DNA of 64,000 bases from Liolophura sinensis (Eukaryota > Mollusca > Polyplacophora > Chitonida > Chitonidae): the NCBI RefSeq assembly GCF_032854445.1, contig NC_088295.1, positions 37,916,510 through 37,980,509 on the forward strand. Reading direction: 5' to 3'. Below, piece by piece: positions 50,501 to 54,333 of the stretch; positions within the stretch are counted from its first letter, which is position 1; each line of letters begins with the position of its first letter. Under the pieces are notes generated by a model, which saw only the letters and a program-made list of their open reading frames with translations, searched no databases and was not told the origin of the DNA. Both the position numbers and the translations under genes were made by a program.

Positions 50501-53500
50501 GCTGCTCAGGGTTGAGGAATTTTCCTGTTGCACTTCCAAAGTCACACAGAACATAATTCCCACCATCTTCTATCAATATGTTTTCTACCTGCAATAAATA
50601 AAGTGGAACAAAACTTATTACTGTCCCAGCCTTACTCAAATACTTTCCACCTATATTATTGCTGTAAGTTTTAAGGGTCTAGAAAACCCAAGGTAAATCA
50701 TCAGGTACAAGTAAAAAATTTATATTAACATGATCACATGATTTAACATGATATACGTTAATTGCTTCACTGTCCAGGCCTTACTCAAAAACTTTCCACC
50801 TATATCATTGCTGTAAGTTTTAAAGGTCTAGAAAACCCATCAACCCTCATCTACCTATAAAACTGGTTGCAAATCATAGAAATGGAAATTTCTTCAGTAT
50901 GGTGTTTAACAACGATCAAATGAAATAAATAAATAAATACACTGTAGATGCTGAGTTATACGTTAACCAAGATGCTCTATATCAAGATGTAGTACACATA
51001 AGAGTGTTGACTTCCTGACAAGGTCATTCAGTTAAGTCTTTGTAGACCAACCTACAGCAGCTGAACAATAGAACACATTTTCATGCCCTTGTAGTTGTAT
51101 GTTCTGCATGCACTTCACACATTTCCTGTATATCAGTCCAGTTGAATGATGTGTGTTGGGTAGGTTGTGTTACAAACTGTCACAATCTTGTCACACAAAT
51201 TCACTTTAGTGGTACAACACAGGTTCAACCCTTGGGAATTGGATTCTGGACAAAGTACACTACCATGTATATTACTATGCTACACAGACATCATACTATA
51301 TTGTGCATTAAATATAACATCACTATCTTAATGTATGTATATATGTAGATGTACACACACATGAACAAAATTTAACAAACTCCAACTGATGTGTAATAAC
51401 TATATGTGTTAGTCAATTCCCCTGGCATAATGCAGACTTGACTCAGAGAGTGTCTTGACAGTATTGCTTGCTATTATTTACTCTAATCTGCATACATGGA
51501 TTAAACAATGGTCTGTTGTAAATGAGTAAAACTGGTTCAGTTCATAAAGTTGCTTTATTAAAAAAACATCCTATTAATTCATTAAAGTAACTGATATTTT
51601 AATAAACTTTTCCTGCCACTTGATCAAATTTAGGACAGCATTTTTTAAAAAACTGTGGTGAGCTCGATTAAAAACCCAGGAAAACCAATTTTTATTTTCA
51701 ATCAAACAAGTATTTGCCTGGCTCTACATGTACAAGAAGAAAGGTGAAAATAAGCCATTAATCACAATGAGCAAAATGCAAATTTGTTAAACTCTAAATT
51801 TATATGAATTCAGTTTTTCAAGAGTTTTGGAGTGGCATTGACCGGTTTTTGGGTTTGAATTCTTCACACACCTGTAACAACAATTTTGTCCACATGTATG
51901 TTGAATTTTAACGAGCACATGTCAATGGGAGATTTCCAAAAAAAAAACACCTGCTATTGATTTTGGTTTTAAGCAGGTTAGTTTAATTGCACCGCAAGCC
52001 AAATGACTGCTTCTTTTAATCAAGCTAATAAAATGACCGAAAACTACGACCAAAAATGTTTATTTTTAGGGACAAAAATGTTATAAATCGTTAATATTTT
52101 ATCTGTACATATTTCCAGTGGTATATCACCCTAAATTCCGAACAAACTTTAAAGCAACTTTCTAAGTTCAAAAGAGCTCGCACATTCAGAAATAAGAGCA
52201 ATTCATTCATGGACGTGATAGTAGGTCATTTTATTACCATATTCCTATTAAAATCCTATTAATCATGTGAGAGTATTCCACAGCAGCTACCCTTCAGCTA
52301 AGCGTACACGTATCAACATACAGCTTAATGCTTGCAGACTTTCCATTCTTGCCAGTGATTATTTAACGAGTACAATTTGAATACTGTGCATATTAGGATT
52401 TGGTACATGAACATCAATGGCATGCATCAGAGCACTTAATACAGATATTATAAACCTTCAGTAACATGGAAATGAATCCCCACATTTCTGAGGGTATATA
52501 CACGTTTACATGAGCTATTATATTTCCTCTCCGTCATGAATCTGAATCTGAATATCACACAAGAAAAACATTTTTGAATAAAGTGTATAAAATCAGTGAA
52601 ACAAACAAACAAAAAGTGTGACTCGGATCATGACCACAGTTCACAACATATGTACTGTACATGTACTGTACATATAGATGTTCACAACCAAATGTTTACT
52701 TTAAGAAGGCTACAAATGATAAGGTTTGACACCAAGTTAATTATACTGAAGGCGCTCACACAAATGTTTACTTTGTGATCTTCGTGTATGGTAGAACTCT
52801 GCACATCAATGTTTATCTTGGGCTCTGTCTGTATGGTAGAACTCTGCACATCAATGTTTACCTTGGGGTCTGTGCTTATGGTAAAACTCTACATAAATGT
52901 TTACCTTGGGGTCTGTGTGTATGGTAGAACTCTGTACATCAATGTTTACCTTAGGGTCTGTGTGTATGGTAGAACTCAGCACATCAATGTTTATCTTGAG
53001 GTCTCTGTGTATGGTAGAACTCAGCACATCAATGTTTACCTTGGGGTCTGTGTGTATCGTAGAACTCGGCACATCAATGTTTACCTTGGGGTCTGTGTGT
53101 ATGGTAGAACTCTGTACATCAATGTTTACCTTGGGGTCTGTGTGCATGGTAGAACTCTGCACATAAATGTTTACCTTGAGGTCTGTGTGCATGGTAGAAC
53201 TCTGCACATAAATGTTTACCTTGAGGTCTGTGTGTATGGTAGAACTCTGCACATCAATGTTTATCTTGAGGTATGTGTGTATGGTAGAACTCTGCACATA
53301 AATGTTTACCTTGAGGTCTGTGTGTATGGTAGAGCACGGCACATCAATGTTTATCTTGAGGTATGTGTGTATGGTAGAGCTTGGCACATGAATGTTTACC
53401 TTGAGGTCTGGGTGTATGGTAGAGCTTGGCACATGAATGCTTACCTTGAGGTCTGGGTGTATGGTAGAGCTTGGCACATGAATGTTTACCTTGAGGTCTG

Positions 53501-54333: not shown

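Follow-up and report, generated by a model that had tools for sequence, protein, structure and literature searches.

The window analysed here, a stretch of 64,000 nucleotides from the chiton Liolophura sinensis, carries a protein kinase gene on its minus strand (Table 1). A phmmer search of the PDB matched the exon ending in ...TPIIHRDLK to BMP2K (1.4e-18) and AAK1 (3.6e-18), and far worse to GAK (7e-4). Judged by its sequence, this exon, with the HRDLKVEN junction present, is that of a kinase of the AAK1/BMP2K (Numb-associated) family. Further kinase exons lie in order on both sides of it, as found by tblastn with a human AAK1 query. The HRDLK exon has one exact match in the 609-Mb genome and is followed by an intron of 3.1 kb. 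The intron preceding it holds copies of a short interspersed element (TTGGTGTTTTACACCGTACTCAAGAATATTTCAC...; 54761-55200), of a type typical of molluscs. Downstream of the kinase exons a short minus-strand repeat (45742-45890) codes for a glutamine-rich stretch, presumably as in AAK1/BMP2K, and a second, unrelated array of four 65-bp copies occupies 17480-17743.

Table 1. Features of the kinase gene (positions in the window) and exon-abutting donor arrays elsewhere in the genome (positions in Mb)
Feature	Position	Strand	Remarks
Preceding kinase exon	54228..54333	-	tblastn with human AAK1 and DNA reading
HRDLK exon, 140 nt, ending in ...TPIIHRDLK	53715..53854	-	exon-like half of each array unit derives from it
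Exon's own 5' splice site, AAG/GTAAGC	53709..53717	-	first intron base 53714; 11.2 bits; U1 -9.5 kcal/mol
Tandem array, ~21 units of 45 bp (one of 43)	52757..53714	-	exon end and donor copied in each unit
Donor copy 2, AAG/GTAAGC	53664..53672	-	first intron base 53669; score equal to exon donor; use would add 15 residues
Donor copy 4, AAG/GTAAGC	53574..53582	-	first intron base 53579; use would add 45 residues
Donor copy 7, AAG/GTAAGC	53439..53447	-	first intron base 53444; use would add 90 residues
43-nt unit	52862..52904	-	shifts the array frame; open frame stops at 52851
Next exon, starting with VENIL	50467..50588	-	phase 0 junction after HRDLK; tblastn with human AAK1 and DNA reading
Annexin exon array			Pfam 5.2e-5, just under Pfam cut-off
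RRP7A exon array (L034)			PDB 1.2e-10; Pfam 8.3e-4, under cut-off
RNA polymerase III RPC1 exon array (L046)	C1:14.889 Mb		PDB 5.9e-8
GH31 glycosidase exon array (L047)	C1:26.353 Mb		Pfam 7e-13
SMAD MH2 exon array			Pfam 1.3e-10
Core-2/I-branching enzyme exon array (L041)	C1:3.203 Mb		Pfam 1.5e-6
Deoxyribose-phosphate aldolase exon array			weak match, 0.0073; no useful PDB match
Arrays L036, L042, L045, L049, L053			exon called from anatomy alone

The intron behind the HRDLK exon begins with a tandem array, which TRF delimits to 52763-53732 (period 45, 21.6 copies, 90% matches). The exon's donor is followed by 21 more junctions at 45-bp steps, except for the 43-nt unit, which is the 19th, and a ragged last one, so the originally predicted run of about 20 tandem 45-bp units adjoining the HRDLK donor is borne out. 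GT is kept in 17 of the 21 copies, close to the predicted sixteen: 12 read AAG/GTAAAC, three AAG/GTAAGC, one AAG/GTGAAC and one AAA/GTAAAC, and the other four have ATAAAC (at 53354, 53264, 52994 and 52816). The units thus lie directly behind the exon, each with a donor-like site in the same register, which is the anatomy of the human IFI6 minisatellite, said to be built of a 12-bp unit. Adjacent units (lag 1) share an identity of 0.922, which declines to 0.873 at lag 7. In a search that skips very common words the 45-bp unit turned up at a single site of the 609-Mb genome, the kinase locus, and a genome-wide satellite or mobile repeat was rejected on these grounds.

The array frame is open across the first 18 units and is then shifted by the 43-nt unit. 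The prediction of stop-free units giving in-frame inserts of 15 x n residues therefore holds for the first 18 units, which leaves at most 15 in-frame GT copies (donors 2-19 minus three with AT) and potential inserts of 15 to 270 residues. As had been stated, the copies mostly read HTD, i.e. in 10 of the first 18 units, with the others reading HAD, HPD, HTY, RTD (one) or HRD (one).

When a 46-residue query was taken from the HRDLK exon, one other exon was found in the genome, at C7:37263991 (E 0.028), in a gene which we take to be GAK-like. This paralogue has a phase-0 intron at the identical place after HRDLK, with the donor AAG/GTAAAT, and the array is absent from the DNA read around it. Because the paralogue shares the intron and lacks the array, we infer that the intron predates the split between the AAK1-type and GAK-like genes, and that the array is a later, derived feature.

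The half of the unit that precedes each donor resembles the exon end. In unit 16 it is identical at 18 of 18 bases, and comparison with the exon gives unit 1 a score of 18.5 (shuffle maximum 14.5), unit 2 one of 20.5 (maximum 14.0) and unit 18 one of 16 (maximum 14). Units 12, 14 and 20, taken alone, score 16, 16 and 12, below their shuffle maxima of 17, 17 and 16; hence, among the seven units on which the test ran, units 1, 2, 16 and 18 beat all shuffles. The exon tail compared with the whole array gave a shuffle P<=0.003. On these alignments each donor is preceded by a copy of the exon end that has drifted, and the original claim that the units repeat the exon end together with its donor stands. 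The last partial unit matches the other, donor half and carries it into the intron, which makes it most likely that the founding duplication spanned the exon-intron border.

It is unlikely, in our opinion, that the unit arose instead as a 45-base duplication lying entirely inside the exon tail (from one AGGT to the next, as the Rogers model has it), a variant that is otherwise compatible with the explanation preferred below. Some 45 bases ahead of its end the exon does carry CAG/GTTACATC. Unit 1 can be aligned with the exon over its whole length, with gaps, and in one of eight tests of this kind its donor half aligned weakly to the upstream exon stretch (P 0.0145; 0.295 in the other placement). 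However, for the consensus and for units 14 and 20 similarity of the donor half to the exon was insignificant (P 0.15-0.84, two placements each). Moreover, the last partial unit, which ought to be how the intron originally began, matches the donor half.

Donors were scored with a 5' splice-site matrix and by the energy of pairing with U1. Copies 2, 4 and 7 tie with the exon donor (11.2 bits, -9.5 kcal/mol), while the common GTAAAC copies reach 7.4 bits and -6.8 kcal/mol, with the GAK-like donor nearby at 8.6 and -6.8. One presumed donor of the same kinase gene is weaker than the GTAAAC copies (4.4 bits, -5.4 kcal/mol), so by predicted strength many array copies could be used as donors. The better G at position +5 occurs in 4 of the first 7 donors and in none of the later 15 (hypergeometric 0.005); shared descent would account for this clustering near the exon, and so would selection for stronger proximal donors. 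The proximal 361 nt of array RNA are less folded than their own shuffles (z +2.0), and structured RNA in the array was rejected on this basis.

Constraint was tested by parsimony on a tree of 20 gap-free units, which yielded 37 changes in total and therefore little power. With these 37 changes, no third-position bias was seen (12/14/11 changes at codon positions 1/2/3), and protein-coding constraint on the units was discarded as a candidate; the nine donor columns held 6 changes against 7.4 expected (P 0.42). In the consensus only 1 of 135 single changes in the array frame yields a stop, so that stop avoidance would be invisible and the open frame is uninformative; the opposite strand likewise has two open frames. 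The open array frame is a consequence of unit composition and no evidence of function. The argument that divisibility by 3 and the lack of stops point to a device is accordingly unsupported, given this rate of one-step stops and the fact that only 2 of the 12 other exon-abutting arrays described below have periods that are multiples of 3. The data give no sign of a selected device, with the proviso that weak constraint would escape a sample of 37 changes.

The genome is rich in minisatellites: 200 kb drawn from 20 random places held 8 arrays that have a period of 20-100 and no fewer than 10 copies. Three AGGTAAG words spaced 16-44 bases from one another were matched 2453 times, compared with 1292 times for the backward control (1.9-fold), and a search with CAGGTAAGT gave 247, against 154 for the backward motif (1.6-fold), both being match-level counts swollen by long arrays. 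General enrichment of the donor motif in the arrays of this genome is unsupported, as 34 random arrays showed no excess (3 observed, 6.1 expected).

Among the matches listed (100 per search), we distinguished 27 arrays on C1-C3 and judged the starts of 23; those left unjudged are L032, L035 and L039, for which the fetched stretch fell short of the array start, and the one at C3:23271050. Twelve of the 23 judged arrays in this list appear to adjoin an exon at its donor and 11 have no exon at their start, by a weak criterion which 962 of 4000 random positions and 13 of 33 lone AGGTAAG sites also pass. A Pfam-matched exon (E<1e-3) was present at 5 of the 23 listed array starts versus 2 of the 33 lone sites (Fisher P 0.11), where peptides came from 14 of the 23 starts and from 10 of the 13 criterion-passing lone sites (three were too short), all others were counted as misses, and the annexin, RRP7 and EGF (lone site) matches lie under Pfam's own cut-off.

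Junction rescoring left L038, L051 and L052 without an exon; the open frame of L038 is made largely of array units, and this array was not counted as an exon case. Neither was L040 (C1:3182400-3183600), in which an open frame of 220 codons ends in CAG/GTAAGA about 165 bases ahead of a donor-motif array; its last 70 residues have no Pfam match. A long 36-bp array without an exon at its start (C1:93392582-93394463) carries a perfect CAG/GTAAGT in dozens of units. L051 and L052 (near C2:109440 and C2:176925) are closely related arrays 67 kb apart, both split by a short interspersed element, and were probably duplicated together with their surroundings.

All 12 exon-abutting arrays come from the listed matches on C1-C3, and within this list homology at E<1e-3 was obtained for 6 of the 12 exons. 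The peptides of L036, L042, L045, L049 and L053 gave nothing in PDB or Pfam searches; we take the L042 exon to be polycystin-like and the L049 exon (C1:65.801 Mb) to be ARFGEF3-like. In 5 of the 12 (annexin, RPC1, GH31, ARFGEF3-like and Core-2/I-branching), as in the kinase array, the downstream copy of the exon tail exceeds every shuffle, and in RRP7A (L034) such a copy was found at P 0.047. The remaining six (L036, L042, L045, L048, L053 and L054) showed no significant exon-tail copy downstream, and there the shared part is mainly the donor and the intron start. In L041, L046, L047 and L049 about 23 to 36 bases of the exon tail are copied nearly exactly, which makes them the clearest members of the class.

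The periods of these 12 arrays, among the matches listed, are 26, 26, 31, 33, 34, 37, 38, 38, 39, 44, 46 and 46. Multiples of 3 make up 2 of 12, or 3 of 13 with the kinase array, no more than expected by chance. Read-through to the next strong copy is open and in frame in 2 of the 12 listed cases (GH31 and Core-2/I-branching) and in the kinase array, i.e. 3 of 13 where chance would give roughly 1/6 (P 0.37), whereas in the other 10 of 12 the next copy leads to a frameshift or a stop. As most such genes would be disrupted if the next donor were used regularly, the exon-proximal donor presumably dominates. In the annexin, RPC1, GH31 and polycystin-like cases (4 of 12) the exon's own site lies at least 3 bits below the copies, a deficit that is partly built in, because arrays were chosen for strong copies. 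These four are good tests of a possible proximity rule. In L042 (C1:3804950-3806150, exon end near base 1031) the own donor is CAG/GCGAGT, and CAG/GTAAAT and CAG/GTAAGT follow downstream; it is possible that splicing has been handed over to a downstream copy.

Based on these observations, we suggest, with a probability of about 80%, that the kinase array is a neutral by-product, namely a minisatellite founded on a splice donor beside an exon whose own donor is mainly used. The unit would have been founded by a short tandem duplication that took in the last bases of the HRDLK exon together with the first of its intron, and the copy number would then have risen inside the intron through slippage or unequal exchange. 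While selection held the exon fixed, the copies would have drifted from TPIIHRDLK to STIHTDLK, and the exon-proximal ones, the working donor included, seem to have been homogenised with one another. U1 most likely picks the exon's own donor, which is nearest to the exon and tied for strongest. In kinases HRDLK carries the catalytic Asp loop and the Asn that follows it binds metal, and an insert between them should abolish catalysis. Occasional use of copies 2, 4 and 7 would place 15, 45 or 90 residues exactly there, and the resulting kinase should be dead. As far as can be told, the array is one of a recurrent class that arises by chance in a minisatellite-rich genome.

The original prediction had offered two readings, of which neutral growth seeded by a splice site is favoured here over a selected multi-donor device. 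In the latter, regular use of downstream donors would produce a ladder of isoforms with 15n additional residues, or inactive kinases acting as scaffolds or competitors. Such a device could draw on 15 in-frame GT copies, three of which match the exon donor in strength, and on the open frame of 18 units; furthermore, according to the excerpt of PMC4526556, a pair of downstream repeat units serve as donors in human IFI6. Yet no constraint was detected on donors or codon positions, unit composition explains the open frame, GT is gone from four copies, and the 43-nt unit disrupts the frame. In 10 of the 12 other exon-abutting arrays, among the matches listed, the next copy would mean a frameshift or a stop. 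Going by kinase structure, an insert between HRDLK and the next Asn should also kill catalysis, and we regard the device as quite improbable.

More doubtful still is an array of decoy sites for U1 that tunes splicing efficiency or shields the 3.1-kb intron from premature polyadenylation, leaving the protein unchanged. Sixteen GT copies are predicted to pair with U1 at -6.8 kcal/mol or better and one at -3.2, and in the weakly folded proximal RNA (361 nt, z +2.0) these sites could be accessible; but the donor columns are without conservation, and the absence of donor enrichment in random arrays (3 versus 6.1 of 34) argues against a general design. A wider proposal, which we consider unlikely, is that donor arrays at many genes form a reservoir of spare donors whose takeover extends the exon, the AAK1 copies then yielding a 15n-residue ladder in the catalytic loop. 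The polycystin-like exon of L042 (C1:3.806 Mb) would be a possible example of such a hand-over.

A single odd array, neutral as we believe the kinase array to be, is of little importance; it is the recurrence across unrelated genes of one genome that is worth following. These loci are natural constructs, with several to dozens of donors of almost the same sequence lined up behind a single exon. They would let RNA sequencing measure how exon distance and donor strength act in the choice of a 5' splice site, and could reveal whether the growth of splice-site repeats is a route to exon lengthening.

The original prediction knew of no described case. This stands for a catalytic-loop donor among the titles and abstract openings listed in a literature search, which included no kinase catalytic-loop case and no genome with many donor-founded arrays; it does not stand for the kind, which is known from IFI6/6-16 (PMC4526556) and from PMC2812944, going by excerpts of both. 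According to the excerpt of PMC2812944, human genes that lie in segmental duplications carry tandem repeats with a mean unit of 30 bp at exon-intron boundaries, and 27 intron modifications are reported. These are minisatellites at exon-intron boundaries like the kinase array, but they concern recent paralogues and can give rise to novel introns via cryptic sites, whereas in the kinase gene an existing donor was apparently multiplied into its own intron. The available part of PMC4974935 describes intron gain by tandem duplication of AGGT-containing segments (the Rogers model) and cites a multi-copy 24-bp case in fission yeasts. Splice signals are multiplied by tandem duplication there as well, but the Rogers model creates a new intron, and none appears to have been created at the kinase array, as the GAK-like paralogue shares the intron position; a parallel gain in the GAK-like gene would be formally conceivable. 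In C. elegans an intronic minisatellite has been tied to multiple splicing decisions, the excerpt of PMC4039745 making no mention of donors within its units.

The closest known system is the human IFI6/6-16 (G1P3) minisatellite, which supplies multiple splice donor sites (Turri et al. 1995, as cited in the passages at hand of PMC2572611, PMC3618361 and PMC2915984). As far as these excerpts go, both arrays consist of tandem units beside an exon, with a donor in each; they differ in the gene and in the unit, and downstream use is reported for IFI6, while for the kinase it is hypothetical. The kinase array is a real and probably neutral minisatellite founded on a splice donor, of a kind that has already been published.
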